NCBI GenBank assembly: GCA_947625165.1
Contig: CANQNH010000004.1
Span: forward strand, 1 to 40,275
Direction of reading: 5' to 3'
Length of the DNA stretch: 40,275 nt
Source: an uncultured Clostridia bacterium
GTDB lineage: Bacteria; Bacillota; Clostridia; Christensenellales; UBA1242
The notes under the pieces: model-generated
The model's input: only the letters and a program-made list of their open reading frames with translations
The model's database searches: none
Told to the model about the DNA's origin: nothing
Shown: positions 17,988-40,275 of the stretch, piece by piece
How positions within the stretch are numbered: position 1 is the first letter of the stretch
How the letters are laid out: the number at the start of each line of letters is the position of its first letter
Translations under genes and position numbers: made by a program

Positions 17988-19070
17988 GTGAAAAAGAGCG
18001 AAGAAACAAACGAAAACATTGTTGAACGAGCGGTTGTTTTTTGTCCTATCGAGAAAAACGAGGACAAAGACTGCCAATTTGCCGAGATTGAGCGGCTGTG
18101 TTTTTCTGCAGGGCTTGAGGTGGTCAAAATTTTCAGTCAGGGGATTGACGCATTCAACAGGCGGACAATTATGGGCAAAGGCAAGGTGGAGGAGATAAAG
18201 TTGTTTCTTTCAGAAAATCCTTGCGACACACTTGTGATGGACTATCAACTCACTGGCTCGCAACTAAGGAATTTGTCGGAAGAACTTGGCGTCAAGGTGA
18301 TTGACAGAATTTTGCTTATCATCGACATTTTTGCGCTGAATGCAAAGTCAAGTGAAGGCAAAATTGAGGTGAAATTGGCACAAAATCGCTATCTTTTGAC
18401 GCGACTTTCGTCTTTGCAGGGCAGTTTTGGCAGATTTGGTGGCAAGGGTGCTGGGATGCGCGGACCCGGCGAAACAAAGATTGAACTTGACCGAAGAAAA
18501 CTTGAAAAAGAGATTGTTTCCTTGCAGGCGGAGATTGAAAAAATCAAAGCAAGCAGAAAACAAAATCGCATTTTGAGGCAGAAAAATGGCATCAAAAGTG
18601 TGGTGCTTGGGGGATATACAAATGCAGGCAAAAGTTCGCTTTTCAACCTTTTGACAAAAGAAAACATCTATGCAGATGACAAACTTTTTGCCACGCTTGA
18701 CACAACAAGCAGAAGGCTGTTTTTGGGTGATGGTAAGTTTTGTTTGTTGACTGACACGGTGGGGTTCATCAGCAAACTGCCACACGAACTTGTTGAAAGT
18801 TTTTCAGCAACCTTGGAAGAGGTTTCATCAGCGGATTTGATTTTGCATATTGTGGATGTTTCGGACAAGTTCTTCAACAAAAACATTGAAATCACCAACA
18901 AAATTCTTGATGATTTGGGGGCAACAAAAAACAGAATCGTTGTGCTTAACAAGTGTGATTTGCTGCAAAAACCGATTGAAATCAAAGAAAATCAAATTTT
19001 GTTTTCTGTCAAAAACAAAACCAATTTGGACAAATTGAAAGAGTTGATTGGGCAGTGTTTGGAAGACTAG
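17988..19070 (+). CDS. hflX: GTPase HflX
   Basis: RRTIMGKGKVEEIK, GAGMRGPGETKIELDRR, GYTNAGKSSLFNLLT, DTVGFISKLPHELVESFSATLEE; GTG start. Confidence 0.97.
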   Translation: MKKSEETNENIVERAVVFCPIEKNEDKDCQFAEIERLCFSAGLEVVKIFSQGIDAFNRRTIMGKGKVEEIKLFLSENPCDTLVMDYQLTGSQLRNLSEELGVKVIDRILLIIDIFALNAKSSEGKIEVKLAQNRYLLTRLSSLQGSFGRFGGKGAGMRGPGETKIELDRRKLEKEIVSLQAEIEKIKASRKQNRILRQKNGIKSVVLGGYTNAGKSSLFNLLTKENIYADDKLFATLDTTSRRLFLGDGKFCLLTDTVGFISKLPHELVESFSATLEEVSSADLILHIVDVSDKFFNKNIEITNKILDDLGATKNRIVVLNKCDLLQKPIEIKENQILFSVKNKTNLDKLKELIGQCLED

Positions 19071-20391: not shown

Positions 20392-20429
20392 TGCAGTTGA
20401 TTGGTGAATGCTATCGATGAAATTTTGAG

Positions 20430-20592
20430 AAAAATGTTGAAAAAAAATAAAAAAACAAAAAACAAATAAAAAATATCAAAAAAATGCAGAAAAATGCGAA
20501 AAAAAACAAATTTTTGATATTTTTTTATTATTTTTCATAATTTTTTGCGATTTTTTAAAATGTTTTTTTGTGCAATTTTTGAATATTTTTTT
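20430..20592. other. long phased A/T-tract array with central A-to-T polarity switch
   Basis: About 16 tracts of 4-8 A or T, spaced mostly 10-11 bp from 20432 to 20589; A-tracts left of ~20508, T-tracts to the right. Confidence 0.75.
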
Positions 20593-20780
20593 GTGCATTT
20601 ATTTGCGCCTAAAACAAATGCGAAAAAACATTTTTGAATTTTTAAAATTTTTTCACTGTTTTCTGTGTTGGAAGTTGTTGTTTTTTTTCGAAAATAAATA
20701 AATTTATTTTTTTTGTTTTTTAATGATTTTATTTGTATTTTTGATGCAATTTGTTGTATCATAAACACAAGGGGAGAATT

Positions 20781-23468
20781 ATGGTCAGAGTTATTCCAAG
20801 AAAAACAAAGGTCAAATCAGAGTTCGTCCGTGGTGTCACTGGGCTTGACATCGTTCTGGGCATCATCTTTGGCGTTGTCGCCATAATTCTTTTTATGGCA
20901 AATTTTGAGGGGCACATCTGGATTGGCATCGCTTGGGTGATTGTCGCAGTTTCAATGTTCTTCAAATTTGCAGACGAAACAAGGTTCTATAACACACTCG
21001 TGTTCTTGCTTCGATATTCCGTCCAGAAAAAAAGATTTCGTAAATCTGACGACAAAAAGAAAAGCGACATCAAAGAGATGATTGCTTATGAGGGGATTTA
21101 TCAAGACAGGTTTATCAATTTTGGTCCATACTTTGCGCAAGTCATTGAAATTGAACCAATGTTCTTCACGCTGCTCACGGAATATTATCAAGACAATGTC
21201 ATCGAAAGTTTTGCAAATGCCATCAGGCGTTTGACCGGTGACCAAACTTGCTCCATCATCAAAATCTCCAAACCAATGATTTTGGACAGATATGTTCACA
21301 ACGAAAACGCAAAATATGAAGTGCTGTATGATATGCAATACGACGGGCAAATCACTCAGGACGAAATTGATGCGCGCTCACCAATTTTTGAAGAAAGAGT
21401 GTCGCTCTATGAGTTTATGAACAGACAGTCAAAAATCTTCAAGGACCACTTCTATCTTGTTGTGTATGACAAAGACCGCGAAGTTTTGGACAACACCACC
21501 TCCGGAATGATAAGCGCGATGGCATCTTCGCTCAACCCAATTTCATCGCATCTTGTCACAGGGAACGACCTTGTTGTTTTCCTCAGGGCAAACCTTGGCA
21601 AAAACTTTGATGAGCGTGATTTGGAAGTGTTGCCAATCACACAGCACATTGATTGGGCAACGCCAGACAAAATCAAATTCAATATTGCGCGCTATTTCAT
21701 TGGCAAAGAGTGCTATCGTTGCTTTAACTTGACCGACTATCCTTTGCAGGTTGGCAACGCTTGGGGTGCACAGTTCTTCCTTTTGGACAGAACGCGAACG
21801 GTTATGAAATTCAACCCAATTCCAAAGTTTGAATCAGAAAAACAGATTGACCGCGCCATTATGGAAATGGAAGCAAAACTTTATAAGGCGGGCAGAAGTT
21901 CCACTCAAATTGAACTTCAAACTCACGTTGAGACTTTGCGCGGGCTTTTGATGAACCTTAAAAACAACAACCAACAACTTTTCAATGTGAACACATACAT
22001 AGTCTGCGAAGACGCCGCCAAAAAAGATGTGCGCGCGATGCTCAAACAACAGGGGTTTAAATATAGCGAACTTTTCTCGCGCCAAATTGATGGTTTCATT
22101 TCGTCAAACATTTCGCGCCGTGATGCTGTGAAAAACTCTTTGCGAGGCATTCCAACATCAACTTTGGCTGCAACATTCCCATTCATTTCAAACGCTTTGC
22201 AAGACCCAAATGGGATCTATCTTGGTGACAACGAATATCCTGTGTTTGTTGACTTTTTCAAGCGTGACCGCGAAAGAGTTAACTCCAATATGATGATTAT
22301 CGGAAAGTCCGGCTCTGGAAAGAGTTATGCCACAAAAACACTTTTGACAAACCTCTCTGCCGACAACTGCAAAATCTTCATTTTGGACCCGGAAAACGAA
22401 TATCAAGACCTGACAATCAACTTGAAAGGCAAGTTTATTGATGTCGGCTCGTCCTTGCACGGCATCATCAATCCTTTCCACGTGATTTCCTCTTTGGAGG
22501 CAAGTGAGGACGAAGATGAAGAAGAGGAGCAATATGACGACTTTGGCAGGCTTATCGTCAAAGAGAAAAAGGAAAAGTTGGCGGACGATTCTTTCCCACA
22601 GCACTTGCAGTTTTTGGAGCAGTTTTTCCGTGTGATTTTGGAGGGCATCAATCCGGATGCGTTTGAGGTGCTCAACTCGCTTATTATAGATATGTATAAA
22701 GAGTTTCACATTGATGCCAAGTCAAATCTTGCCAAACTGAAACCAACCGACTATCCAACCTTTGACGCACTTTATGACCTTATTTTGCGAAGAATTAAGG
22801 AAGCAAAAGACGAATTTTCGCTGAAAAACCTTATGACAGTTGAAACATACATCAAAAAGTTTGCTTCGGGCGGGCGTAACAGCGCACTTTGGAATGGCCC
22901 AACATCCATCGAAACAAATGAAAACTTTGTCACTTTCAACTTTCAATCGTTGGTTGCAGGAAACAACCCTCAAATCACCAATGCTCAGATGCTTTTGGTG
23001 TTCAGATATTTGAACAACGAAATCATCAATAACAAAGATTTCAACAAAAAATATCGAAAAAACAGAAAAATTATTGTTGCGGTCGATGAGGCGCACATCT
23101 TCATCAACCCGAAATATCCAATCGCGTTGGACTTTATGGCTCAAATGGCAAAGCGTATCAGAAAATATGGCGGAATGCAGATTGTCATCACGCAGAACAT
23201 TTCCGACTTTGTGGGCAGTGATGAAATCAAACGACAGTCAACTGCCGTCATCAACGCGTGCCAATATTCGCTCATTTTTTCGCTTGCTCCAAGCGATATG
23301 AACGACCTTGTGGACCTTTATTCCAAATCGGGCGGCATCAACGAGGAGGAGCAAAACTCAATCGTCACCGCCAGTGTTGGACAGGCCTTCTTAATCACCG
23401 GCCCAACTTCAAGAACAACAGTGCAAATCATTGCACAAGACTATGTCAAACGGCTCTTCGGAGAGTGA
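20781..23468 (+). CDS. VirB4/TraC-family ATPase with N-terminal PrgI/VirB3-like two-TM domain
   Basis: N-terminus IPRKTKVKSEFVRGVTGLDIVLGIIFGVVAIILF...IWIGIAWVIVAVSMFF; Walker A IIGKSGSGKSYATK; Walker B KIIVAVDEAHIFI; FMAQMAKRIRKYGGMQIVITQNISDF. Start set to ATG 20781 (GGGGAGA SD). Confidence 0.9.
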   Translation: MVRVIPRKTKVKSEFVRGVTGLDIVLGIIFGVVAIILFMANFEGHIWIGIAWVIVAVSMFFKFADETRFYNTLVFLLRYSVQKKRFRKSDDKKKSDIKEMIAYEGIYQDRFINFGPYFAQVIEIEPMFFTLLTEYYQDNVIESFANAIRRLTGDQTCSIIKISKPMILDRYVHNENAKYEVLYDMQYDGQITQDEIDARSPIFEERVSLYEFMNRQSKIFKDHFYLVVYDKDREVLDNTTSGMISAMASSLNPISSHLVTGNDLVVFLRANLGKNFDERDLEVLPITQHIDWATPDKIKFNIARYFIGKECYRCFNLTDYPLQVGNAWGAQFFLLDRTRTVMKFNPIPKFESEKQIDRAIMEMEAKLYKAGRSSTQIELQTHVETLRGLLMNLKNNNQQLFNVNTYIVCEDAAKKDVRAMLKQQGFKYSELFSRQIDGFISSNISRRDAVKNSLRGIPTSTLAATFPFISNALQDPNGIYLGDNEYPVFVDFFKRDRERVNSNMMIIGKSGSGKSYATKTLLTNLSADNCKIFILDPENEYQDLTINLKGKFIDVGSSLHGIINPFHVISSLEASEDEDEEEEQYDDFGRLIVKEKKEKLADDSFPQHLQFLEQFFRVILEGINPDAFEVLNSLIIDMYKEFHIDAKSNLAKLKPTDYPTFDALYDLILRRIKEAKDEFSLKNLMTVETYIKKFASGGRNSALWNGPTSIETNENFVTFNFQSLVAGNNPQITNAQMLLVFRYLNNEIINNKDFNKKYRKNRKIIVAVDEAHIFINPKYPIALDFMAQMAKRIRKYGGMQIVITQNISDFVGSDEIKRQSTAVINACQYSLIFSLAPSDMNDLVDLYSKSGGINEEEQNSIVTASVGQAFLITGPTSRTTVQIIAQDYVKRLFGE

Positions 23469-23484
23469 CAACAAAGGAAGGAAT

Positions 23485-26400
23485 ATGGCAAAAACCTTGC
23501 GAAGAATTCTTATTGCAATTTGTGGCGCTTTCGCTCTGCTTGTTGGAGGTGCGTTTTTCGTTGGGTGTGGTGAGGACTACAGCAAAATCAACCTTGTCAC
23601 AGATGTTTCTTCAATAAACTTGGAAATCGGGGAAAGTCGAAACATTTATGTCACTTTTGAAAACTATCAAAATGGTTTCAACACGCAACTGACAACAAGT
23701 TCTGGACTTGATGAGGCAGTTTTTGCAATCACATCGCAAAAAGTTGTTTCAAACAACCGGGTTCAAATCACAATCACTGGTGTTGACGGCGGGAAAGACG
23801 AACTGATAATCACATCTTGGGACACAAAGAAAAAATGCACTGTGAACATCTTTGTCAACAAATATTCTTCTGTTTTGTCGCAGAACGAAAGGACTTTCTA
23901 TGTTTCAAACACAACATCTCTTTTGCCAGACGCGAACAATTTCATATTTTCACCAAACACGCAAAATTATGATATGACCTATTATTATATGGAAAATTCT
24001 GATGCTTCATTGAATTTCGCAACCTCAAGACTTGAGACTGTTGAGGCTGTGGAAGGCGATGAAACAGAATTTCTGGGCAACTTTGTTTGGAGTTCTCAAC
24101 AGCGACAAATTTCTCTTCGAAAATTTGACGAAATCAAACTTGTCAAGCAGCCTGATGGCAGAGATATGCTGGAGATTTATCTTGACGGGCAGTTGCTTCT
24201 TCCACCATTTCTTCCAACAGGCAAGAGTTTTCAAATGTTGTCAACCTATGACCACTCTTTTGAGGTTGATGAGGACAGAAAACTGTTCTGCGTTTCGCCG
24301 GTCTATGTGATGCCAGACATTCAAGTTGAGATAAGCGGGGGATACTATTATATTGACAACTCAGGGGAGCGTCATCTGCTTTTGGAAGATTTGCCGCTGA
24401 GCGACAAGAATGAGATTGGACCAATTATGATTGTTCCAAACAATCTTGAACGCACGGACTTTGTCTTGAAAGTTGTTATGAACCAAAATGACAATTTTCA
24501 AATTGAATTTGGAAACTTCATTCAATCACTTGAAAACATTGTTGACATCAGCATTTTCAATCCGCCAGATGATATGGATTTGGAAAAAGCCGACAACATC
24601 TTGTATATCAAAATTTCACAAAATGCCAAGACAAGTGCGCAAATGAATTTCAGTTTTGACATTTCCTATGACCAAGCGCAAGGCATTGAGGATGCAAGCG
24701 TTTCCAAAACTGTCACTTGCAACATTGTCACAAAAGTTGCGCCAAATGACATCACGGTGAATGGACTTCTTGGCGATGTCAAATTTATGGTGTATAACTA
24801 CAGCCAAACAGGATACGGCGAAGAGGCGCTGTATCTTGATGTCATTTCGGGCTTTGCAACCTCGCCAGATTTTGAGGGGTTGTTTTTCCGCTATGACGAA
24901 AACTTTTTGAAAATAAACCACAAAAACAAAGAGGTCAGGTCAGGCGTTTTGCAAAAACTTGACCTGGATGACCTCAACACTCCGTTTATGGTTCAGGGCG
25001 TTTGGGATGCTGATGAAAGAAAGGATGTTGAACTTGAAATCTATGTTGTCAGCGATGTCCTTCAAAATGACGACAGTGAGGAGTTTGAAGGGAAACAACT
25101 TCGCCGAACAGGAAAGGTGACTTTTGATGTTGTTGGCGGCGCACACAACTTGTTGCTTGAAGGCAAAAACGAGTTTTATGTTGATTTTGACGCCGGCACA
25201 AAGCAGTTTTTCACATATGTTTTTGCGGACAGCGAGTTTAAGAGTGTGAATGTGAAACACTCTGGCAGCGATGTTGTTGACATTAAACTTGACACTTTGC
25301 AAATTTATGACCACGAGGAAGGCACGACAAAATATTATCTTCGACTTTTGGTCACTCCAAAAGCAATCGGGGATGGATTTTACAAACTTCAACTTGACAA
25401 CGGAACGGAAATGGCTGATGAACTTCATTTTTACTGCCTTAAAACGCTGACAGAAAAGTCCATAACCTTTCAACTTTCTCCAAGTGACAACGAAAATGTG
25501 ACCAATCCGCCAGATTATTCCAAAACGGAAGATGTTGAAACACTTAGCAATGTTTTGAATTTGGAAATTCTCAACAAATCTGACGAGGGCGGCAGCGAGG
25601 CATTTGTTGACATCTATGCCAATGTCAATGAAATAAACGGAATTGAACCAACACTGCAAGAGGGCAGTGAGGGTGTTTTGGCAAAACCAACCTTTTTTGA
25701 TGGCAGACTGAGGCTGAGAACAATTGCCAATGGCGAAGCAACCGTTTTGATAACTTTGCGAGGCGTTCAAATCAGTGGGGCGGTTGGCGAAGAGTTTGTC
25801 AAACAAGACAAGGTAATTTTGCTGTATGTCAATGTGATTTCATATTCACTTGTTGACGACTTTTTCCTTATGAATGGCGGTGACTATGCTTTGGTCAACA
25901 ATGTCTATTATGGCAGCGACAGAATTCCGTTTGACGACAAGCAGGTCAAACTTTCGGCAAGGGTTGCTCCGGAGAGTGCGTTTGCTTTCTTGCAATATTC
26001 TTTCAAAGCAGAGGCGGTTAAAGAGTTTTTTGAAAACTCCGTCAGCGCCGGAAGTTTCTTCACATATGAAATCCCAACAGGGCGACAATTTGAGCAATTT
26101 GTTTCATCTCAAATCGTTGCAAAATCATTTCAAAAAGAGTTCATCTATTTCACCGCGATGAGACTGGGTGACACACTTGGCGTTTCAACATCAATCTATG
26201 TTGACATCACCAAAGGCGATATGCAAAAACAGGTGTTGCTTGAGTTTTCAAACGGAATTATGTTCTATCCAGAAGACGAAATTGTTTTTGAGGACGAATT
26301 TGGGCAAACCTACACCGCAACTTTCACCGACAAAACCTATTGGGTGGACAGCTATGGCACGTTCAACCTTGACACTCTGACATATCAAGACAGAAGAAAC

Positions 26401-29400
26401 AGTGCCTATCAAATTGTTTTAAGTTCAAACATAAGCCAAAGAAACCAAACAAAAAGATATGATGCAAGAATTTCATCCATTGAATATCAGCGTGTGGAAT
26501 ATATTTCGCTTGTTTCCGCTCAGACAAACATTGATTTTTCGGATGGAAAATTGACACAGCCAATCGGGGTGTCGCTCTATCCACCATTTGCAACAAACAC
26601 GGGGATTAATGTCCAATTTGTGACCACCAATGGCAACCCATATGACGGCAATGTCAACGAGGGCAACCCATACGGCATCAAAATGGTTGAACCAAAATGG
26701 GATGAAAAAGACAACGGAACTGGAATTTACACGATTGACCTTTCTTGCCAAAATTTCTATGACCAAGTTGTCAGCAAAGGCGAGGTCAAAGATGGCACAA
26801 AACTGACAGGACTGCTTTACATCTATCCAAAAGAGTGGGCGGACGACTATAGTTCCATTCCGGCTGACTTGCAGCCAGTCATTTTGCAGGTGCAATATCG
26901 AAACGGCACGAGAGAAAACCCGTATCTGATTGAAACATATCAAGACGTGCTGAACATAAACAATGAGGCAAGCCTTAAGAGCCACTATGAAATCAGAACA
27001 ACCATTGATATGCACAATGCAAAATTTGACCGCCCAATTGGCATCTTGGGGGATGGCGGCAACACGACAGTGGTTGAGTTTTCTGGCTCAATTGTTGGAA
27101 CAACCTCTCAGGCATCAATCATCAATCTTGACATCAACAACAGCAACTTCACAAAGGTTGTTGATGGGGTTTTATACAGCGGACTTTTTGCCAAAATCAA
27201 ATCGGCGGACTTTGCTGAAATTCTGCAAGATGATGCTGGGCACAGAACTGTTGAGGACGCCGACACTTTGTTCAACAATTTCACAATTTCTGGCACTTTT
27301 GATTTGGATTTGACCGAACTTGACCACACCAATGCTTATGTTGGACTTTTGTGTGGCATTTCTGCTGGAAAAATTTTGAATGTTGCTGTCAACATTGAAG
27401 CAAATTCACAAATTTTGGTTAAAGATGGCACAACACTTCATTTTGGCGGGATGAGCGGTGTGAACTTCGGAGCGATTGTGCAAGATTTTGGGCAATATTT
27501 TGCCAGCGAAGATGACGAAAGCGAACAAAAATTTGTTGGTCAAAACACCAAAAATGTGGCATATTTCCTTGGCACAAATGACCATCCAATGAAAATCGTT
27601 GGCGGTCAGAATGTGTATGCCGGAGGAGTTGTTGGAGCAAACAGCGGTGTGATTGTGCGAAGAGAAATCCCTGACGGAATGAGGATTTATGGCTATGGGA
27701 AATACACCGCATATGCGCAACTTGAAATCACCAATGCACAAAATGTGAGTGCAGGCGGCGTTGCGGGTGTGACGGCTTACGCAGATGGTTCTTCTGTGCC
27801 GTATGCCAGCGACTTTTTTGCGGATGTTGAGCAGGTTGACAAAGGCATTGTGATGAAAAACTTGCTTGTTGGCGGCGAGGTGAATGCCCTGACGGTTGAA
27901 AACTCAAATGTTGGCGGATTGGTTGGAACTTTGGACACTCACAACACCTCCTCAATCAACATTGAGAAAAACACATCCCGAACTTTTGTTCGAGGAAAAT
28001 TTGTTGGCGGTCTTGTGGGCGTTGACAATTGGAAATCGACCTATGACAGTTCAAAGGTTGTTCATTTTTCTTCCACAAACAGTCTGGAAAGCGTTGATGA
28101 CGGAAGAAGTCCGTTCTATGCCGCACAAGTCATCAGCACAAATCAAAAGTTTGACAGTGATTTGTCTTCAAACAAAAACATTATGATTGGAAAAACCTCT
28201 TTGGAATATGTTGACGAAAAGGGCGTTTCTTCTGAATTTTCAGTGGCAACCTACAACGCGCGCAATCATCTTGACAAGCCAACTTCGCCTGTCACACCAA
28301 CAAACGCTTCAACGGAAGGATATTATGGAGATTTCATCTGCGTCACAAGGAGCGGACAAGACTATTCAATCGGCACAGCAAAGTTTTTTGACTATCGTTC
28401 CTCAAGCATAGACTTTGGCGCAAGTCAATTTGAAATGCCACTTAAAAACGCAGGCGCACCTGTGGGCATTCCAAGAGTGTTCTTTGCATTCTTGTTTGAT
28501 GTCAACTCCACACTTGGCGGCGAGAGGGCAAGTTTGGAAGATGTTGCCGACTTGAACATTATCAGTCCAACACAAGATGACCTCTATCCTTTTGTTTTGA
28601 ACAGCGAGGACATCACAATCAATTCTGAAACATCCAATTTGGGCATTGACCTTGCCGGCAATTTGACTATGCGACAGACCGGAATTGCAACTGTGCGTGT
28701 CACATCAATTCTCAACACTGTCCAATCGCAAACAATTTATCTGTGGATTGTCAACTATTTCAATCGAAATGTTTCATCAATTTTCTACACCACTCTTGAC
28801 GCAGATGGTGTTCCAAAAACAGATGGTGGCTTAACACATATCTATGGAAACTCATATTCACATCTATATCTTCGTCCGTCCTATCAATTGGACAGCACAA
28901 CCATCAATGGCGACAGAGTTGTGATTTCAAGCGATGGAGTTGTTTCGTTTCAGGGTGTGGCATACAACATTGTCAGAAACACACAACTTGGCATTTCAAA
29001 AGAGCAGGATGCCAATGTGAAAGATGCAAATGGTGGGGCTGTTGTCGGTGGCGATGGCTTGAATGTGCCTGCTTTCTCAAATGCACAAATAAGACAGCAA
29101 ACCATAAGTTTCTATAAGAAAAACGATGCGCAGGAAGGCTACACTGACCACTATACGCTTGTTCCTGTGCTTGAACAAACAATTGCATTTGAAGGAAGGG
29201 AATATACATATCTCTTTGAGTTGACTTCTTCAAAAATAAGTTTGGATGTCAGATATCACGAAACGGCAACCAATATTTCGGTTGGCGACAAGCCTATTTC
29301 GTTCTCAACAAATGGCGCTTTCGATGACATTGTGACCATTGAAAGCACAAGAGATGAAGAACTGCTTTTCTATGACATCCTTGGTCCAAACAGAAGGTCA

Positions 29401-32400
29401 ATTCAAAGACGTATGCCAAGTCTGGATGATGTTGCAAAATATGACGAAGATGAGGCGGCATATCTTCAATATCTCAACACTTTCACGGAAGACGACCTTT
29501 TCAAAGTTGAATTTGAAAGAATGCCAACAAGAAACACTTTCAAATATCGTTTCTCTCTGAATGTGAACAGCACAAAATATCTCAACCGTTTCAAAGAAAG
29601 CATTTTTGGCGAATATGTTTTGGTGTTCTATTCCAGCGAGTTGGACACCGGCGTGGCATATTGTGAAGTGCCAATCCACCTTGACGAAGAAACTTTGGAC
29701 TATGCAATGATGACAAACTATTCCAACTGGGAAGATGTTTCGGTTTCTGACAATGTGGTTGTTCCGTCAAAACGTGGACTTTTGGAAATTTCTTTAAACC
29801 CTGTTGATTCCGTCTTTGACACTTTGACGCTTTCCAACAACGCGATGAACAGCGGGGCAGGGGCAACGAATGCTGTTTTTGAGTTTGTCTATCAAAAAGT
29901 CACTGTTGAGGGTGTTGAATATGTCCGAAACGAACATTTTGGGCACAGCGAAAATGGAGGCTTTTGGTTTACATATCAAGAACTTGTTGAGTTTTATGAA
30001 AACCTGCACAAAAGTGACCCAAGCCTTGCCGAAACGATTTACTATGGCAAAGTTTTCATCTCGTATGTGATGCCGTCACGAAATGTTGATGACAATGTGA
30101 CAGTGGCATTTGATTTGACAGTCACTCACGGAAATGCCGGCGATGCCGAGCCTGTGACAGCAACCATTGAACTGACCACAAAACTTTCAAGTTATGCAAA
30201 AATGACAATCGACGACAAAAATCTTGTTGGTGATGCCTATTATGTTGCACGCGGAATGTCTTATGCCATCTCGCTTGACTATTTTGGTTTCAGCGAGGAC
30301 GACATTGAAATCACAAGCGACCATCCAGAAAATGTTCAAATTTCAAAAGAGGACAGAACACTGACCGTTCTTTCAAACCCTGTGCGCTATCCATCTGGAA
30401 GTGATGGGCTTGAAGTGAAAATCACAACCCACGCTCTGCGCGAAGTTGAGGGCGTTGTTGTGGAGTCCATTGACGAGCAAATCATCTATGTGATGGAATT
30501 TGTTTTGGAATATAACTATGAAGTTGGCGTTTTTGAGGACATTGTTTATGGAATGCAAAACGGCGTCATCAATGTTGCCATTGGAAATCCTTTTGAATTG
30601 AGATTTTCCATCAGAGACTTTTTGGAATACAACCCAGAAATTGACGATGTCAACTTGGCTGTTGATGACTTTGTGGAGAGCATGACAAGCAACATCTTGT
30701 GGCGCGTGTTTGAAAATGGTGAGTTCCAAACTCTTAAACAAGGCTTTGAGATCAAGTCGCAATATTACAACATCTCTTCGTTCGTCTTCACACCAATCAA
30801 GATTTACAACCACACGCAAGACATCTATCACTTCACCGCGATGGGTCACTACACAATGAGCGAAGGAAAATACGTTTTCTCTTCTTCGGACATGAACACC
30901 AGTTTGATATACACCGAATTTGCTTTTGATGTTCACGAACAAAGCACTGACGACAACCCAATCCCTGTTGAAACCTATGAAGAATTGATGAATATGCAAG
31001 AGGAGCAATATTACATCCTGCTGAGCGACATATACATTCCAAACGATGCTGCTGCAAGAGTGGATGGGCTTCAGAAATTTGAACCAATCAGCAACGCGAT
31101 TGCCGGCCTTGATGGAAACTCATACAGCATCTTCTTTGGCGGAACTTATGATTTTTCCGAACTTGAAACAAACTATGTTGGCCTTTTTGAGACGGTTGCA
31201 AATGGTGCATTGCTTCGAAATGTCAAAATTCAACTTGAAACAGATGTGGAGTTCCGTTTCAACACAACATCCTTTAATGTTGGAATGTTGGCTGGCACAA
31301 ATCAGGGTGTCATCACAAACTGCGAGGCTGAATTTGGGGAATACTCTTTGACGGTCACAAATCTCAACCTTGTCAACGCGCAAGATGCTTCGTCAACTGT
31401 TGCAGGCCTTGTTGCAACAAACAGCGGCTACGTCACCAACTCTCGTTCTTCTGCAAACATATTTGCTTCTGCAAATCTTTCCGGCTTTGTTGGCAGCAAT
31501 TCCAGAACAATTTCAAGTTCCTATTTCCGCGGTGGAAGATTGAAGAATTTGAGTAACAATGCGGGCGTGAAAACGGCTGGACTTGTCATCAACAACACAT
31601 CCCAAGGTGAAATCAACACATCCTATGTCAGTGGCGACCTTTCGGATGACTATGAAGTTGGCGGAAACGAAGGAAAACAATATTATGACGGCACAGCAAA
31701 TCTGATTGAATCGCGAAACAGCGTTGCTGGATTTGTTTCCACAAACAGCGGAAATGTGGCAAATTGCTATACCAACATCGCGCTTCGACATAGTGGGCAA
31801 TATGGCGCAGGTTTTGTGCTTGAAAACTCTGGTCTTATCAGAGAGTGCTTCTCAACAAGCGTTTTGGAAAGTTATGACGACTCAAGCTTTGGCTTTGCAA
31901 TGCAAAACAGTGTTTTGACTGAAGGCGATGGAGGGCAGATGGTTCGCGAAGGCGGAACAATCACCGACACTTGCTTCTTCTTGAGCCAGGCAGCAACGGA
32001 TTCCTCGCCAGACATAAATGTCAGCATCGGCGAAATTAATGAAGACGAAAACACAAAAGTTCGCGCACTCGATTTTGCGGGATTTAGGAATTTGGACAAT
32101 TTTGATGGCTACACCTATGTGACCGGAAGAAAGATTGATTCGGTTTGGTTCTATAACGAAGAAATAACTGCTGTTGCAAACTTCAATGGCAAACTCTTCA
32201 ACACATTCAGATTGGAGCTTGTTGCACCAAACATTGTTGCAACATCAAAACGCGAGTTCTTTGACATTCAGGTTGTTCGTGACCCAGAAACAGGCGCAGA
32301 ATACAATCGCTATCTTTATGTTTTCGATTCGTCATCGCCAGCACTTGGCTCGCTCTATAATCCAATCGTCATTCGAAACGCGGAAGATATGGAAGATTAT

Positions 32401-34089
32401 ATCACCCAAGAAAATGACCGTGACAACTATAACTTTGCTTACTATCGTCTTGCCGCTGACATCGACTATTCCTCTCACCTTGAAAACAGCAAAACATTCA
32501 ACACAAAGTTTATGGGCTATTTTGAAGGCAACTCTATGACAATCTCCAATCAAAGACTTGTTTCGGACAAATATCTGACCTTTGCTGGTCTGTTTGCCGA
32601 AGTTGGAAGCAGCCAGATGGCAAATGCGATTGGCACGGTTTTGAATTTTGACTACGAACCAAGCATTGTCCACTTTGCAAACGCAAGTGTTGTTGGTGGA
32701 ATTGCCGGAAAACTTGACGGAGGCACAATTGCCAATGTGGAGATTGATGGCTCAGATGGGCAAGAGGTGGTTGGAAACAACATTGTTGGCGGGGCGGTTG
32801 GCTTGACACTTGGAAGATTTAAAATTCAAAATGTCAACTCTCACCTCAGCGCAAGAGCAAGATTTGAGGACCCAGCATTCAACAACTTTGACAAAAAGAC
32901 AAGCAGTTTCTGGACATATTCCTTTGCTGGCTCGCTTGTGGGCGTTTTGAGTGGAGATGCAGGCAGGGATGGAGCAACACTTTCAAAATGTCAACTTGAT
33001 GGCACGGCTGTTTCTGTGACGGCTGCAAAAGCGGGGCTTTTGTTTGGCCTTATTGATGAAGATGTGACAGTTTTTGACATATACATCAAAATGCAACTGA
33101 ATATGGTTGTCAATGCACATCGATATGGCGGTCTTGTCGCCGGTGAAAGCAAAGGTGTTGTGAACAAAGTTGTTGTTGAAGGTGCGGATGGAAATGGCAT
33201 TTTCACCAATTTCCAGGATGTTCCAAGAATTGCTGATGCTGTTGGCGGCTTTGCCGGGCTTTTGAGTGGTGGAAGTTTGACAGACATCACAATGTCGCAA
33301 TCGATTTCTGTCAGCACAGAGAGCAATGAAAAAGGCATCAAACATCTTGGCGCAATTGCGGGGGAAATCTCGGGCGATATTGTTGCATCACAGATTTATG
33401 TTGATCAAGTTTCATTGATTGGTTTCCAATATGTTGGTGGCTTTGCGGGTCTTTATTCCGCAACATCGGGAGGAAGTTCGTTCAGTCTGATTTCCATCAC
33501 AAATTGCAATTTGAGGCTGTGTGGTGTGAAATTGAATGTTGCAAGCATTGGTGGACTGATTGCTTTGGTCAAATATGACGCAGATGTTCAACTTTTGGGT
33601 GAACCTCCAAAGAATGCAAGTGGAGCAGAAGCCGGAGCAGAGGGAACGGAAGAGAGCGCGGAGAAGAAAAAATCAACAATTGACATTGTTGTGTCTTCAA
33701 TGCTGTATGACTACGACACTGAAGTCTATCTGAATGTTGGCACGATTGTTGGAATGAATGGCGAAGAAATGGAAAGTTCTGGACAGCCAACAAACATATC
33801 TGTCAAAGACACGACTTGCAAAATGGTCAGCGATGCAGAGCAAGGACATTTGAACATTGTCAATTTGGCATTGCCAATTGACACAAAACAATCTTGCACA
33901 GTGAGAGGTGGAAAAGATGATGTTGTTCAGCAATCCGACAATGAATATATCAAAGTCTATAAGAACACTGCTGAAAACACCACATATGAAATTGATTTGA
34001 CCTTCTCATATATGAAGAGTGACCGAAATCTTGCTCAGATGTTGAATGTTTCGGTTTACCGAAGTTTGCCATCTTCAGAAGCAGGTTGA
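23485..34089 (+). CDS. giant predicted lipoprotein (~3,534 aa) with three GLUG-type beta-helix modules
   Basis: MAKTLRRILIAICGAFALLVGGAFFVGC lipobox-like signal; multiple [AV]GG[LF][VA]G-N-G repeats; start 17 nt after the VirB4-like stop with SD AAGGAAGGAA. Confidence 0.88.
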   Translation: MAKTLRRILIAICGAFALLVGGAFFVGCGEDYSKINLVTDVSSINLEIGESRNIYVTFENYQNGFNTQLTTSSGLDEAVFAITSQKVVSNNRVQITITGVDGGKDELIITSWDTKKKCTVNIFVNKYSSVLSQNERTFYVSNTTSLLPDANNFIFSPNTQNYDMTYYYMENSDASLNFATSRLETVEAVEGDETEFLGNFVWSSQQRQISLRKFDEIKLVKQPDGRDMLEIYLDGQLLLPPFLPTGKSFQMLSTYDHSFEVDEDRKLFCVSPVYVMPDIQVEISGGYYYIDNSGERHLLLEDLPLSDKNEIGPIMIVPNNLERTDFVLKVVMNQNDNFQIEFGNFIQSLENIVDISIFNPPDDMDLEKADNILYIKISQNAKTSAQMNFSFDISYDQAQGIEDASVSKTVTCNIVTKVAPNDITVNGLLGDVKFMVYNYSQTGYGEEALYLDVISGFATSPDFEGLFFRYDENFLKINHKNKEVRSGVLQKLDLDDLNTPFMVQGVWDADERKDVELEIYVVSDVLQNDDSEEFEGKQLRRTGKVTFDVVGGAHNLLLEGKNEFYVDFDAGTKQFFTYVFADSEFKSVNVKHSGSDVVDIKLDTLQIYDHEEGTTKYYLRLLVTPKAIGDGFYKLQLDNGTEMADELHFYCLKTLTEKSITFQLSPSDNENVTNPPDYSKTEDVETLSNVLNLEILNKSDEGGSEAFVDIYANVNEINGIEPTLQEGSEGVLAKPTFFDGRLRLRTIANGEATVLITLRGVQISGAVGEEFVKQDKVILLYVNVISYSLVDDFFLMNGGDYALVNNVYYGSDRIPFDDKQVKLSARVAPESAFAFLQYSFKAEAVKEFFENSVSAGSFFTYEIPTGRQFEQFVSSQIVAKSFQKEFIYFTAMRLGDTLGVSTSIYVDITKGDMQKQVLLEFSNGIMFYPEDEIVFEDEFGQTYTATFTDKTYWVDSYGTFNLDTLTYQDRRNSAYQIVLSSNISQRNQTKRYDARISSIEYQRVEYISLVSAQTNIDFSDGKLTQPIGVSLYPPFATNTGINVQFVTTNGNPYDGNVNEGNPYGIKMVEPKWDEKDNGTGIYTIDLSCQNFYDQVVSKGEVKDGTKLTGLLYIYPKEWADDYSSIPADLQPVILQVQYRNGTRENPYLIETYQDVLNINNEASLKSHYEIRTTIDMHNAKFDRPIGILGDGGNTTVVEFSGSIVGTTSQASIINLDINNSNFTKVVDGVLYSGLFAKIKSADFAEILQDDAGHRTVEDADTLFNNFTISGTFDLDLTELDHTNAYVGLLCGISAGKILNVAVNIEANSQILVKDGTTLHFGGMSGVNFGAIVQDFGQYFASEDDESEQKFVGQNTKNVAYFLGTNDHPMKIVGGQNVYAGGVVGANSGVIVRREIPDGMRIYGYGKYTAYAQLEITNAQNVSAGGVAGVTAYADGSSVPYASDFFADVEQVDKGIVMKNLLVGGEVNALTVENSNVGGLVGTLDTHNTSSINIEKNTSRTFVRGKFVGGLVGVDNWKSTYDSSKVVHFSSTNSLESVDDGRSPFYAAQVISTNQKFDSDLSSNKNIMIGKTSLEYVDEKGVSSEFSVATYNARNHLDKPTSPVTPTNASTEGYYGDFICVTRSGQDYSIGTAKFFDYRSSSIDFGASQFEMPLKNAGAPVGIPRVFFAFLFDVNSTLGGERASLEDVADLNIISPTQDDLYPFVLNSEDITINSETSNLGIDLAGNLTMRQTGIATVRVTSILNTVQSQTIYLWIVNYFNRNVSSIFYTTLDADGVPKTDGGLTHIYGNSYSHLYLRPSYQLDSTTINGDRVVISSDGVVSFQGVAYNIVRNTQLGISKEQDANVKDANGGAVVGGDGLNVPAFSNAQIRQQTISFYKKNDAQEGYTDHYTLVPVLEQTIAFEGREYTYLFELTSSKISLDVRYHETATNISVGDKPISFSTNGAFDDIVTIESTRDEELLFYDILGPNRRSIQRRMPSLDDVAKYDEDEAAYLQYLNTFTEDDLFKVEFERMPTRNTFKYRFSLNVNSTKYLNRFKESIFGEYVLVFYSSELDTGVAYCEVPIHLDEETLDYAMMTNYSNWEDVSVSDNVVVPSKRGLLEISLNPVDSVFDTLTLSNNAMNSGAGATNAVFEFVYQKVTVEGVEYVRNEHFGHSENGGFWFTYQELVEFYENLHKSDPSLAETIYYGKVFISYVMPSRNVDDNVTVAFDLTVTHGNAGDAEPVTATIELTTKLSSYAKMTIDDKNLVGDAYYVARGMSYAISLDYFGFSEDDIEITSDHPENVQISKEDRTLTVLSNPVRYPSGSDGLEVKITTHALREVEGVVVESIDEQIIYVMEFVLEYNYEVGVFEDIVYGMQNGVINVAIGNPFELRFSIRDFLEYNPEIDDVNLAVDDFVESMTSNILWRVFENGEFQTLKQGFEIKSQYYNISSFVFTPIKIYNHTQDIYHFTAMGHYTMSEGKYVFSSSDMNTSLIYTEFAFDVHEQSTDDNPIPVETYEELMNMQEEQYYILLSDIYIPNDAAARVDGLQKFEPISNAIAGLDGNSYSIFFGGTYDFSELETNYVGLFETVANGALLRNVKIQLETDVEFRFNTTSFNVGMLAGTNQGVITNCEAEFGEYSLTVTNLNLVNAQDASSTVAGLVATNSGYVTNSRSSANIFASANLSGFVGSNSRTISSSYFRGGRLKNLSNNAGVKTAGLVINNTSQGEINTSYVSGDLSDDYEVGGNEGKQYYDGTANLIESRNSVAGFVSTNSGNVANCYTNIALRHSGQYGAGFVLENSGLIRECFSTSVLESYDDSSFGFAMQNSVLTEGDGGQMVREGGTITDTCFFLSQAATDSSPDINVSIGEINEDENTKVRALDFAGFRNLDNFDGYTYVTGRKIDSVWFYNEEITAVANFNGKLFNTFRLELVAPNIVATSKREFFDIQVVRDPETGAEYNRYLYVFDSSSPALGSLYNPIVIRNAEDMEDYITQENDRDNYNFAYYRLAADIDYSSHLENSKTFNTKFMGYFEGNSMTISNQRLVSDKYLTFAGLFAEVGSSQMANAIGTVLNFDYEPSIVHFANASVVGGIAGKLDGGTIANVEIDGSDGQEVVGNNIVGGAVGLTLGRFKIQNVNSHLSARARFEDPAFNNFDKKTSSFWTYSFAGSLVGVLSGDAGRDGATLSKCQLDGTAVSVTAAKAGLLFGLIDEDVTVFDIYIKMQLNMVVNAHRYGGLVAGESKGVVNKVVVEGADGNGIFTNFQDVPRIADAVGGFAGLLSGGSLTDITMSQSISVSTESNEKGIKHLGAIAGEISGDIVASQIYVDQVSLIGFQYVGGFAGLYSATSGGSSFSLISITNCNLRLCGVKLNVASIGGLIALVKYDADVQLLGEPPKNASGAEAGAEGTEESAEKKKSTIDIVVSSMLYDYDTEVYLNVGTIVGMNGEEMESSGQPTNISVKDTTCKMVSDAEQGHLNIVNLALPIDTKQSCTVRGGKDDVVQQSDNEYIKVYKNTAENTTYEIDLTFSYMKSDRNLAQMLNVSVYRSLPSSEAG

Positions 34090-34374: not shown

Positions 34375-34473
34375 AAACAAAAATGTGCGCGTTTTCGACA
34401 ACATATGTCCTTGAAAGTTCTCTCTGACAGCAAAACAATGTGAATGTTTGTGATTTTTAAGGAGTGGAAAACT

Positions 34474-37400
34474 ATGGCAAACGAAATTATGAAAAAACAA
34501 AAATTTGGCAAGGTTGAAAGATACACTTTCGCTCAACTGAAAGATTATATCGACATTCCGCCACTGCTTGAAATACAGCGCAATTCTTTCGATGATTTCA
34601 TCAAAAACGGCATCAAAGAGGTGCTGGATGAGTTTTCGCCTATCGTGGACTATTCCGGAAAGGCAAAACTCTATTTTCTTGAACCTGTCATCGACACCAC
34701 ACCAAAATATTCCAAAAAGGAATGCAAAAAAAGAAGTGTGACATATTCTGTGCCACTCAATGTCAAAACCCGTTTTGTTGTTGAAGAAACCGGTCAGGCC
34801 GTTGAGGACACTGTTTTCTTGGGCGACATTCCATTTATGACTGAGGACTGTTCTTTCATCTTCAACGGCGTTGAAAGAGTTGTTGTCAATCAAATCATCA
34901 AATCGCCAAATTACTATCTTTTGAAGGACAAGCCGCACGATGACACCACTCTTCACGGGCAAATCATTCCAAAGAGGGGGATGTATATCGAATTTGAGCA
35001 GGGCGCAAACGAAGTTTTGAAGGTTGTGCTTGACCGCAGACATAAAGTGACGCTTGGGCTTTTCCTCAAATGCTTTGGCTACACCGCTGACGAAATTTCC
35101 AAACTCTTTGGCGGACACAGACTGATTAAGAATGTTCTTGAAAAAGAAACAATCAACACGCAAGAAGAGGCTCTTTTGGAATTTGCCAGAAAAACAAGAC
35201 CAGCCGATGTTCCATCTGCCGAAACAACACGCTCATATCTCAACCTTTGGTTCTTCAGCGAGCAGTGGTATAACCTTTCACGCGTGGGAAGATACAACCT
35301 CAACAAAAAATTCTCGATTGCACGCAGAATTGACGGGCATATCGTTGCGGAAGACGTTGTTTCTCCTGATGGCGAACTTCTTGCAAAGGCTGGCACTGTT
35401 GTTGACACCGAACTTGCAAACAAAATCAAAGCAAGCGGCGTGAACGAGGTTTGGGTTCAACTTTCTGACAAGAAACATCTCATTCGTGGCAACAACCGCG
35501 TCAAACTTTCCGATTTCTTCCCTTGTGATGAGAAGGCTCTTGGAATTGAAGAGGAAGTTTACTATCCACTTCTTGCTCAAATCTTGAAAGACAACAAGAC
35601 AAAAGAAAAACGCTTGAATGCAATCAAAGAGCACGCCAAAGATTTGGTCATCACAACTTTGACAATGGATGACATCTTGGCTGCAATCAGCATGTATCTT
35701 GATGTTTTGGAGGGGATTGCCAAAACTGACAAGATTGAACACCTTTCAAACAAACGCATCGCCACGGTTGGCGAATTGTTCTATGACCACTTCCGCTCTG
35801 GCGTGACAAAACTTGTTGCAAATGTTCGCGAAACTTTGCAGGGAAAAGAACTTTCCGAAGTCACTCCAAGACAAATCATCAATCCAAAGGCAATCAACAG
35901 AGCGCTCCGTGATTTTGTGGCATCGTCACAACTTTCACAACTTATGGACCAAGTCAATCCGCTTTCTGGAATAACGCAGAAACGCCGTGTTTCAGCCGTT
36001 GGACCTGGCGGCATCAGGAAAGAGCGTGCCGATGCCGAAGTGCGTGATATTCACTACACAAACTATGGCCGCATCTGCCCAATCGAAACCCCAGAAGGTC
36101 AGGCAATCGGGCTTGTGAACACTTTGACAAGTTATGCCAAAGTCAACGAATATGGCTTTTTGGAAACACCATATCGTCGCGTTGACAAAGCAACCGGAAA
36201 GGTCAGCGACAAGTGCGAATATTTTATGGCTGACATCGAGGACACTGCATACATCGCTCAGGCAACAGAGCCTCTTGACAGCGAAGGCAGATTTGTCAAC
36301 AAGCGCGTTATGTGCAGACATAAGGACTATGCCATTGAAGTTCCCGCAAACCAAGTTGATTTGGTTGACGCTTCTCCAAGACAATTCATTTCTGTGGCAA
36401 CATCGCTCATTCCGTTTGTCAACTCAAACGAAGCAAACCGTGCGTTGATGGGCGCAAACATGCAGCGTCAAGCAGTGCCACTTCTTCGCCCAGAAGCACC
36501 AATCGTTGGAACGGGTATGGAAGCAAAGGTCGCACACGATTGCGGCTACACCACTTTGGCAAAATCAGATGGTGTTGTTGAATATGTCAGCGCAGACGAA
36601 GTGCGCATCAAGAACGATAAGGGCGAGGTTGAAATTTACAACCTTATCAAATTTGACAAAACAAACGATGAAACCTGCTTCAATCAAAAACCTTGCGTTG
36701 TGAAAGGCGAAAAAGTGAAGAAAGGCGATGTCATCATTGATGGCTATTCCACCGAAAATGGCGAACTTGCACTTGGAAAAAATGTGCTTGTTGGCTATAT
36801 GAACTGGGAAGGCTATAACTATGAGGACGCGGTTCTCATCAACGAGCGTCTTGTGAAAGAAGATGTGTTCACATCAATTTGCTTGAAAGTTGAAGAACTC
36901 AAATGCCGAACAACAAAACTTGGTGATGAGCAAATCACACGCGACATTCCAAATCTTGGTGATGAGGCGCTGAAAAACCTTGACGAAAACGGCATCATCC
37001 GTATTGGCGCAGAGGTAAGACCGGGTGATATTTTGGTTGGAAAGGTGACACCAAAGGGCGAAACTGAGCTTTCACCAGAAGAAAGATTGTTGCGCGCAAT
37101 CTTTGGTGAAAAAGCAAGAGAAGTCCGCGACACCTCACTTCGTGTTCAGCACGGAAAAGGTGGTGTTGTTGTGGATGTTCAAGTGTTCAGCCGTGAAAAT
37201 AAGGACGAACTTGAACCGGGCGTCAACCAACTTGTGAAAGTGTTCATCGCTCAAAAGAGAAAACTCTCTGTCGGCGACAAAATGGCAGGAAGATACGGCA
37301 ATAAAGGCTGCATCTCCATTGTGTTGCCAGAGGCAGATATGCCATTTATGGCAAACGGAAGAAGCCTTGACATTGTGCTCAACCCACTTGGCGTGCCTTC

Positions 37401-38187
37401 GCGTATGAATTTGGGTCAGGTTTTGGAAGTCCACCTTGGACTTGTTGCCGGCTCTCTTGGTTGGAAAGTGGCAACTCCAAACTTTGATGGCGCTGATGCC
37501 GAAAAAATTCAACAACTCCTCAAAGAAAACAACTTCCCAGAGGATGGCAAAGTTCAACTCTATGACGGCAGAACGGGCGAGCCTTTTGAAAACAAAACCA
37601 CAATCGGAATTGAATATATGTTGAAACTCAACCATATGGTTGACAGCAAAATTCACGCACGTTCAATCGGACCATACTCACTCATCACTCAGCAGCCACT
37701 TGGCGGAAAGGCATTGTTTGGCGGCCAAAGATTTGGTGAAATGGAAGTTTGGGCGCTGGAAGCATATGGCGCAAGCCACGTTCTTCAAGAGATGCTCACT
37801 GTCAAATCCGATGATGTTGTGGGCAGAGTTAAGACTTTTGAAAGCATTGTGAAAGGTTTGCCAATCGCAGAGCCGGGAATTCCAGAATCCTTCAAAGTTT
37901 TGGTGAAAGAACTTCAAGCACTTGCACTTGATGTCAAGATTTTGACAGAAAATGATGAAGAAATTGAACTTCCAGAACTCTCACAAGACGAGCAAGACAA
38001 GATGAGCCTTGACAGTGATGTTGAAAAAGACCTTGAAAAAGTCACACTTGACATTGACGATATGCTTTCAGACGAAGATGATGACGGAAAGTCGGATGTT
38101 CAGAAGGAAATTGAAGAAGAAACCGCACTGCCAACAGGCACTGACGAAATTGACTTGTTTGACGATTTTGGCGACTTTGATGAATGA
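34474..38187 (+). CDS. rpoB: DNA-directed RNA polymerase subunit beta
   Basis: SSQLSQLMDQVNPLSGITQKRRVSAVGPGG, RICPIETPEGQAIGL, GDKMAGRYGNKG, QPLGGKALFGGQRFGEMEVWALEAYGA. Start set to ATG 34474 (SD AAGGAG). Confidence 0.98.
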   Translation: MANEIMKKQKFGKVERYTFAQLKDYIDIPPLLEIQRNSFDDFIKNGIKEVLDEFSPIVDYSGKAKLYFLEPVIDTTPKYSKKECKKRSVTYSVPLNVKTRFVVEETGQAVEDTVFLGDIPFMTEDCSFIFNGVERVVVNQIIKSPNYYLLKDKPHDDTTLHGQIIPKRGMYIEFEQGANEVLKVVLDRRHKVTLGLFLKCFGYTADEISKLFGGHRLIKNVLEKETINTQEEALLEFARKTRPADVPSAETTRSYLNLWFFSEQWYNLSRVGRYNLNKKFSIARRIDGHIVAEDVVSPDGELLAKAGTVVDTELANKIKASGVNEVWVQLSDKKHLIRGNNRVKLSDFFPCDEKALGIEEEVYYPLLAQILKDNKTKEKRLNAIKEHAKDLVITTLTMDDILAAISMYLDVLEGIAKTDKIEHLSNKRIATVGELFYDHFRSGVTKLVANVRETLQGKELSEVTPRQIINPKAINRALRDFVASSQLSQLMDQVNPLSGITQKRRVSAVGPGGIRKERADAEVRDIHYTNYGRICPIETPEGQAIGLVNTLTSYAKVNEYGFLETPYRRVDKATGKVSDKCEYFMADIEDTAYIAQATEPLDSEGRFVNKRVMCRHKDYAIEVPANQVDLVDASPRQFISVATSLIPFVNSNEANRALMGANMQRQAVPLLRPEAPIVGTGMEAKVAHDCGYTTLAKSDGVVEYVSADEVRIKNDKGEVEIYNLIKFDKTNDETCFNQKPCVVKGEKVKKGDVIIDGYSTENGELALGKNVLVGYMNWEGYNYEDAVLINERLVKEDVFTSICLKVEELKCRTTKLGDEQITRDIPNLGDEALKNLDENGIIRIGAEVRPGDILVGKVTPKGETELSPEERLLRAIFGEKAREVRDTSLRVQHGKGGVVVDVQVFSRENKDELEPGVNQLVKVFIAQKRKLSVGDKMAGRYGNKGCISIVLPEADMPFMANGRSLDIVLNPLGVPSRMNLGQVLEVHLGLVAGSLGWKVATPNFDGADAEKIQQLLKENNFPEDGKVQLYDGRTGEPFENKTTIGIEYMLKLNHMVDSKIHARSIGPYSLITQQPLGGKALFGGQRFGEMEVWALEAYGASHVLQEMLTVKSDDVVGRVKTFESIVKGLPIAEPGIPESFKVLVKELQALALDVKILTENDEEIELPELSQDEQDKMSLDSDVEKDLEKVTLDIDDMLSDEDDDGKSDVQKEIEEETALPTGTDEIDLFDDFGDFDE

Positions 38188-38338: not shown

Positions 38339-40275
38339 ATGTTTGAACTTAATAACTTTGAAAAAATCAGAATTGGAATTGCAAGTCCAGAAAAAATCAG
38401 AGAATGGTCTCACGGTGAAGTGACAAAGCCTGAAACCATAAACTATCGCACTCAAAAGCCTGAAAAAGACGGACTTTTCTGCGAAAAGATTTTTGGACCA
38501 AAAAAGGATTGGGAATGCCATTGTGGAAAATATAAGCGCATCCGCTATCGCGGCGTTGTCTGCGACAAGTGCGGTGTTGAGGTGACAAGAAGCAAGGTGC
38601 GCCGTGAAAGAATGGGGCATATCGAACTTGCCACTCCTGTCACACATTTGTGGTATTTCCGCAGCGTTCCATCTCGCATCGGAACACTTCTTGACCTCAC
38701 TCCAAAAACTTTGGAGCAGGTTGTTTATTACATCAACTATATTGTCACAGACCCAAAACATACCGACCTTGAATATAAACAAATCCTCAACGATAAGGAA
38801 TATCGTGATGCCATTGAAAAATATGGTTATGGCTCTTTTGATGCAGGAATGGGCGCAGAGGCAATCAAAGTTTTGCTGTCGCACATCGACCTTGACAGAG
38901 AAAGCGAAGCCCTGAAAGAAGAAATCAAAAATTCCAAAGGACAAAGAAAGATTAAGGCAGCAAAAAAACTTGATGTTGTTGAAAGTTTCCGAAAGAGCGG
39001 CAACAATCCAACTTGGATGGTGCTTGACTGCTTGCCTGTTCTTCCACCAGAACTTCGTCCAATGGTGCCACTGGATGGCGGAAGATATGCAACCAGCGAT
39101 TTGAATGACCTTTATCGCCGTGTCATCAACAGAAACAACCGTTTGAAAAAACTTATGGAACTTGGCGCGCCAGATGTCATCATCCGCAACGAAAAACGTA
39201 TGCTTCAAGAGGCTGTGGACAACCTTATTGACAATGGAAAACGCGGAAAACCTGTTCAGGGCAGCAAACAACGCGATTTGAAATCGCTGACTGCGATGTT
39301 GGGCGGAAAACAGGGGCGCTTCCGTCAAAACCTTCTTGGAAAGCGTGTGGACTATTCTGGACGTTCGGTTATCGTTGTTGGGCCAGAACTGAAAATGTAT
39401 CAATGCGGTCTGCCAAAAGAAATGGCTCTTGAACTTTTCAAGCCTTTCATCATCAACAGATTGATTGATATGAACCAATCAAACAACATCAAAACTGCAA
39501 AAAGAATGATTGAGCGTGAAAAACCAATCGTTTGGGATGTTTTGGCGGATGTCATCAAAGACCATCCTGTGCTTTTGAACCGTGCGCCAACACTTCACAG
39601 ACTTTCCGTTCAAGCGTTTGAGCCTGTTCTTGTTGAAGGCAAGGCCATCAAACTTCACCCATCTGTGTGCGCTGCGTTCAACGCCGACTTCGATGGTGAC
39701 CAAATGCCTGTTCACATTCCTCTTTCGATTGATGCTCGTGCTGAGGCAAGAACTTTGATGCTTGCTTCAAACAACATCCTCAAACTGTCTGATGGTGAGC
39801 CAATTGTCACACCTGCACAAGATGTTGTTTTGGGATGCTATTATCTCACACTTATAAGACCGGGCGCAAAAGGCGAAGGCGGAATTTTCACATCAAAGAA
39901 TGAAGCAATCTATGCTTATCAAACCAAAAATCTTGATTTGCAAGCAGAAATCACAATTCGTTTGAGCAAAGAGGTTGACGGAAAGACCTACGTAAAGCGT
40001 GTGACAACTTCTGTTGGAAGAATTTTGTTCAACAACATCATTCCACAGGATTTGGGCTATGTTGACCGTTCTGTTCCTGAAAACATCTGCGATTTGGAAA
40101 TCAATCGCGCAGTCAAGAAAAAAGACCTTCAAAACATTGTTTCAAAATGCTATGACAGATTTGGAACAACTGAAACATCAAAACTTGTTGACCGCTTGAA
40201 AGAAACGGGATATAAATATTCCACTCTTGCATCAATTTCTGTGAATATGTATGACATTCAAGAGCCAGAAGAGAA
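38339..40275 (+). CDS. rpoC: DNA-directed RNA polymerase subunit beta', 3'-truncated by window edge
   Basis: Not in the ORF track because it runs off the end. [50 protein letters not shown] zinc site, [25 protein letters not shown]. Confidence 0.98.

Follow-up and report, generated by a model that had tools for sequence, protein, structure and literature searches.

It is fairly probable that the VirB4-type ATPase encoded in the window (the whole stretch of DNA analysed, 40,275 bases, which is the entire contig C4 of a 1.04-Mb, 56-contig, 82%-complete draft genome) is the VirB4 of a complete, minimal, MPF_FATA-like T4SS that its bacterial family has kept in its core genome by vertical descent. 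The presence of the partner genes, the rarity of relaxases, the covariation of distances among the components, the tracking of rpoB by VirB4, and a VirB4 clade that excludes an ICE-like copy led us to conclude that the ATPase drives a T4SS which is found throughout the family and probably does not conjugate. At the level of gene content, there is good support for a core T4SS whose genes are dispersed, which probably does not conjugate, and which goes with a giant surface protein specific to the lineage.

The ATPase gene (20781..23468, + strand) was intact, encoded 895 aa from its ATG, and was assigned by NCBIfam model NF045975, PDB 4ag5, and family orthologues. NF045975, the Mbov_0397-family ICE ATPase, aligned with the protein end to end (E 5e-166) at 553.9 bits, slightly below its curated cutoff of 590 bits. 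Since the two are homologous but the score fell below the cutoff, the window VirB4 was regarded as a relative of NF045975 and no formal member. The VirB4 C-terminal ATPase domain PF19044 scored 67.7 bits against a cutoff of 25.8, and the solved VirB4 domain of PDB 4ag5 matched residues 481-899 of the 905-aa ORF (E 3e-43). The Walker A motif GKSGSGKS at residue 508 (22302..22325, +) was invariant in the alignment of homologues, and the Walker B motif IVAVDE was located at residue 765. The AlphaFold model of the ATPase had a pLDDT of 56.6 and was set aside. Two predicted TM segments at the N-terminus (20781..21032, +) bore out the original prediction of a VirB4-type ATPase with its own two-TM domain. 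For the identity of that domain as PrgI/VirB3, the matches were weak: the N-terminus matched Pfam VirB3 weakly (E 0.015, 16.0 bits versus a cutoff of 23.9), and PrgI was weakly matched by the N-termini of two VirB4 homologues (best E 0.017). A VirB3/PrgI-like segment fused to VirB4 is plausible from these matches and the hydrophobic segments, but the Pfam cutoff was not reached. Just 5' of VirB4, the intergenic stretch 20400..20750 was strongly AT-rich. The upstream neighbour conserved in the genus, given here as context only, encodes an HflX-type GTPase (17988..19070, +).

VirD4 and VirB6, which the original prediction had not recognised in the window, were absent from this 40-kb contig only. 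Both were found on other contigs of the same genome, VirD4 on C45 (E 2e-183) and VirB6 on C27, with the pilin on C31 (E 3e-28). Together with VirB4 on C4, one genome thus encodes VirB4, VirD4, VirB6, and a pilin/VirB3-type component, as a monoderm (MPF_FATA) system does; the set sought comprised VirB4, VirD4, VirB6, and pilin, the accessory parts of such a system being VirB8/PrgL and a VirB1-like hydrolase. The description of the machine as stripped-down does not fit a genome that encodes VirD4, VirB6, a pilin, and a second giant elsewhere. A complete conjugation gene set elsewhere in the genome without its own VirB4 had been named in advance as an outcome that would count against the idea of an export machine; the search of the rest of the genome found a T4SS set of this kind without its own VirB4, but no relaxase was found with it.

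The survey covered 197 genomes of about 1 Mb from 42 genera of one GTDB family, probably the Christensenellales family UBA1242, which has been described as genome-reduced (PMC13155120). VirB4 was detected in 188/197 genomes, usually as a single copy, and VirD4 and VirB6 in 187/197 each; all three were found in 42/42 genera. A VirB2-like pilin was present in 20 of the 21 genomes of the window's genus. In other genera, VirB4 was located within a recognisable T4SS cluster with VirD4, VirB6, and the VirB2-like pilin. The partners of family mates scored above the cutoffs of their families: VirD4 against NF045973 (265.8 bits, cutoff 250), VirB6 against NF045848 (152 bits, cutoff 90), and the VirB2-like pilin against PF18895. 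In the window's genus, the T4SS genes are dispersed over the chromosome. In genome G080, for example, VirB4 (49.8 kb), VirD4 (119.6 kb), and the second giant, named VDG below (153.0 kb), were spread along a single 336-kb contig, and a different contig carried the VirB6 genes. That the T4SS was kept in nearly every member of a family with ~1-Mb genomes suggests that it does something the cells cannot do without. Several members of the genus (L082, L083, L086, L087, L088, and L089) had three tandem VirB6 genes, which recall the repeated VirB6 genes of the Rickettsiales. In two loci of other genera, long soluble proteins of 1,462 aa (L059:10838-15226) and 1,625 aa (L061:11510-16387) were encoded directly 3' of VirB4 and followed by a conserved protein of ~80 aa; they may be cytosolic partners or substrates.

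Relaxases were rare. With working controls, the MOB-P relaxase PF03432 was found in 6/197 family genomes and in 0/18 genomes of the genus, and the MOB-T relaxase PF02486 in 0/98 genomes; of the classes MOB-P, -T, -V, -Q, -F, -C, -M, and -H, the counts cover MOB-P and MOB-T, and MOB-V (PF01076) was excluded because its control matched nowhere. The system thus showed neither a regular relaxase of the PF03432 or PF02486 type nor the clustered, mobile, patchily distributed organisation of a conjugative element: it was found in 42 of 42 genera, its loci were dispersed, and its synteny with rpoBC was fixed in the genus. Judged from this gene complement, the T4SS is probably non-conjugative, in line with the original prediction that the ATPase does not serve DNA transfer.

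The components were inherited together. Pairwise distances of VirB4, VirD4, VirB6, and VDG covaried (Mantel r 0.60-0.87, p 0.001). VirB4 distances followed those of rpoB (r 0.91, n=14, slope 1.04); since the two genes are near each other in most of the genomes compared, this correlation may reflect linkage as well as vertical descent. In a tree rooted with the single available Patescibacteria VirB4, the fixed VirB4s formed one clade (support 0.99) that did not include the ICE-like second VirB4 of a same-genus genome. This second copy belongs to an ICE-like T4SS cluster at about 61-74 kb of contig 1 of G180 (L093, L141), which encodes a VirD4 of 722 aa, a 1,481-aa protein, a pilin, a VirB6 of 467 aa, and a VirB4 of 873 aa. 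A similar pair of VirD4 and a 1,478-aa protein was observed in L120. The plasmids searched for VirB4 contained no close relative (Spiroplasma, 24-31% identity), and the viral contigs searched contained no relatives. The predicted chromosomal fixation of the ATPase was therefore confirmed by its near-universal and usually single-copy occurrence in the family.

The giant lipoprotein gene (23485..34089, +; 3,534 aa) started 16 nt past the VirB4 stop codon and was preceded by an RBS-like AAGGAAGG. Its signal peptide (23485..23568, +) extended to a predicted lipidated Cys28 (LLVGGAFFVGC, lipobox FFVGC), so that the protein had both the N-terminal signal and the lipobox Cys of a bacterial lipoprotein. 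The same lipobox pattern was seen in the giants of other loci of the genus, and both the genus and its sister genera encoded homologues of ~3.1-3.8 kaa. The giant was followed by rpoB (34444..38187, +), which came 3' of it in all same-genus genomes read, and by rpoC (38339..40273, +), cut by the window end. The order of an intact ATPase, a giant lipoprotein, and rpoBC was thus as originally described. The assignment of the giant as a GLUG protein needed qualification. A GLUG-like beta-solenoid region (31078..33420, +) was indicated by Pfam Glug matches in homologues, AlphaFold, and Foldseek: Glug matched four of nine homologous segments of the giant (best E 8e-4), and AlphaFold predicted a beta-solenoid for the C-terminal 781-aa segment (pLDDT 75.8). 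The best Foldseek match of this predicted solenoid, partial and of low TM, was to an IgA1 protease (6xja, E 1e-4), a GLUG-containing protease. The lipobox and the predicted solenoid fold agree with the original description, but Glug (PF07581) did not exceed its cutoff of 20.5 bits anywhere in the window protein itself (best 11.1 bits, E 0.6). The likeness to GLUG-motif surface proteins and the IgA1 protease beta-helix lies in the beta-solenoid region; unlike them, the window lipoprotein contained neither an HExxH protease motif nor an LPxTG sorting motif, and its structural match was only partial. A family-wide search with the giant gave weaker, local similarity to many family proteins of 4-9 kaa. 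Family genomes contained numerous single ORFs of 4,000-8,800 aa in which GLUG-like similarity was local (for example contig 7 of G073), and giant proteins were common in these ~1-Mb genomes.

We further compared the arrangement of VirB4, the giant, and rpoBC across relatives. VirB4 and the giant were adjacent in 16/16 loci of the genus, mostly 9-111 nt apart (genus membership of loci from the named collection was inferred via VirB4 identity), and the order VirB4-giant-rpoB-rpoC was found in all 12 same-genus genomes read. The pair is therefore real and beyond chance. Six sister genera (g11, g13, g20, g27, g32, and g36) encoded giants of 3.1-3.3 kaa that were homologous over most of their length, with ~30% identity to the window protein, and none of these was beside VirB4. 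The linkage that had been expected to be conserved thus held throughout the genus but not for the sister-genus homologues. In g32 the giant was followed by rpoB and rpoC with VirB4 absent from this order, and the g36 giant was four genes away from rpoB; the giant-rpoBC neighbourhood therefore probably predates the link to VirB4. The linkage is probably a genus-level rearrangement, an accident of gene order, in which VirB4 would have landed 5' of the giant lipoprotein in the window's genus.

These gene orders bear directly on the model of the original prediction, in which VirB4 is dedicated to the export or assembly of the giant GLUG-like lipoprotein. Strict adjacency and the invariant order with rpoBC in the genus favour that model, but the linkage is confined to the genus, the g32 giant adjoins rpoBC without VirB4, and VirB4 also occurs in genera that encode no close homologue of the window giant. 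Moreover, the genome encodes full T4SS partners elsewhere, and the giant bears an ordinary lipoprotein signal, for which the Sec and Lgt route is expected. A dedicated pair is therefore very unlikely. VirB4 and the giant are probably co-transcribed, and the giant is an independently conserved surface protein, perhaps displayed on the same surface as the T4SS; its status as a client is putative.

A different giant accompanied the T4SS across the family. We named it VDG; it is unrelated to the window lipoprotein. VDG was ~2,500-2,900 aa long, carried hydrophobic anchors at both termini, and had a basic tail. It was encoded directly 3' of VirD4 on the same strand in 11 genera, with one small gene between the two in g7, and roughly half of the other genera read showed this adjacency. 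In the loci read from the window's genus, no T4SS gene adjoined VDG. With the C-terminal 600 residues as a profile, VDG was detected in 173/197 family genomes and 41/42 genera, usually once per genome, and the window's own genome carried a VDG of 2,842 aa on contig C6. No family in Pfam or NCBIfam matched VDG. Order-wide, the profile found the family members and only five weak, mostly short matches outside the family, and VDG is essentially family-specific. Its distribution and its adjacency to VirD4 suggest a giant surface partner of the T4SS that is specific to the lineage and distinct from the window lipoprotein, a tie drawn from gene neighbourhood and co-distribution. The suggestion that giant surface proteins go with this machinery thus stood insofar as giants recur beside T4SS genes, but the family-wide companion is VDG and not the window lipoprotein. 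The window giant was also considered as a displaced VirD4-linked giant. This was rejected because neither an HMM built from the genus giants nor one built from the VDGs recovered the other group, and because a VDG is encoded separately in the window's own genome.

These data are best read as a translocation machine that depends on cell contact and has a giant surface partner. VirD4 would hand the substrate to a channel of VirB4, VirB6, and pilin, and VDG would project from the cell and contact the target cell, or form an outer channel or adhesin. What passes between neighbouring cells may be protein or nucleic acid substrates, and not an element that transmits itself. In its more specific form, a core relaxase-free T4SS that serves with VDG in obligatory cell contact, for effector delivery or macromolecule uptake, would be the Firmicutes counterpart of the Patescibacteria epibiont machine, assembled from parts of the mycoplasma-ICE type; we put this forward tentatively, at somewhat below even chances. 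A domesticated conjugation machine, by which cells of the family would still pass chromosomal DNA to one another with the help of a diverged or unrecognised relaxase, comparable to the distributive chromosomal transfer of mycoplasmas, would account for the closest named families being mycoplasma ICE proteins (NF045975, NF045848, and NF045849) and for the almost universal retention of the VirD4 coupling ATPase, and the relaxase tests were limited to some MOB classes. However, the PF03432 and PF02486 searches, run with working controls, returned six genomes and none, and the genes are single copy, dispersed, and syntenic with housekeeping genes, which makes this explanation unlikely.

Less likely still is a machine for DNA or nucleotide uptake, similar to Helicobacter ComB or archaeal Ced/Ted, by which a genome-reduced auxotroph would scavenge the nucleic acids of its neighbours. 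It is at odds with the retention of VirD4 and pilin; Helicobacter ComB is not known to need VirD4. The small genomes of about 1 Mb would suit it, and for the Patescibacteria system, which is similar, a role in import has been put forward (PMC12102498). We give hardly any credence to the remaining explanation, that the genes are the functionless remnant of a decaying ICE. Second, ICE-like copies do exist in some genomes such as G180, but the fixed VirB4 clade is separate from that copy, the genes are intact in nearly all 197 reduced genomes with invariant catalytic motifs, and VirB4 distances are about as small as those of rpoB.

No paper on a T4SS in this lineage was found in the open literature. 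The nearest described parallel is the T4SS of Patescibacteria, which is chromosomal and mostly relaxase-free, and whose genes are required for epibiotic growth (PMC12102498). Both systems occur lineage-wide on the chromosomes of monoderms with reduced genomes, with a VirB4/VirD4/VirB6/VirB2-like set and rare relaxases (PMC12102498). They differ in the Clostridia host, the VDG of ~2.8 kaa, and the VirB3/PrgI-like N-terminus of VirB4; the Patescibacteria study reported no VirB3-VirB4 fusions (PMC12102498). The one Patescibacteria VirB4 available for comparison was 21% identical. The best-matching families for pilin, VirB6, and VirB4 were those of the Mycoplasma/Spiroplasma ICE T4SS (Mbov_0395/0396/0397; ICEA CDS5/CDS17). 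These ICEs are mobile clusters, whereas the Clostridia genes are fixed, single-copy, and dispersed in the genus, and neither giant matched the NCBIfam ICE protein models. The mycoplasma ICEA depends on CDS14, a lipoprotein of the cell surface for which a role in promoting cell contact has been proposed (PMC6030558); it may serve as an analogy for a surface partner and implies no homology. The rvh T4SS of Rickettsiales is likewise fixed in small genomes and non-conjugative, with genes in dispersed islets (PMC12102498), but it is a diderm P-type apparatus.

T4SSs that are fixed and poor in relaxases thus occur in reduced monoderm genomes beyond the Patescibacteria. If the system is a cell-contact machine, it would help to explain the lifestyle of these uncultured gut bacteria and would point to co-culture strategies. 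VDG represents a large protein family outside Pfam and NCBIfam and makes the question of how monoderm T4SSs reach their target cell testable. Elsewhere in the window, a second long ORF of at least 1,748 aa (1..5247), cut by the contig start, matched no protein family. The 600-aa product of the gene at 13944..15746 carries InlB B-type/Flg_new repeats (PF18998, 25.7 bits, above cutoff) and is apparently another surface protein.
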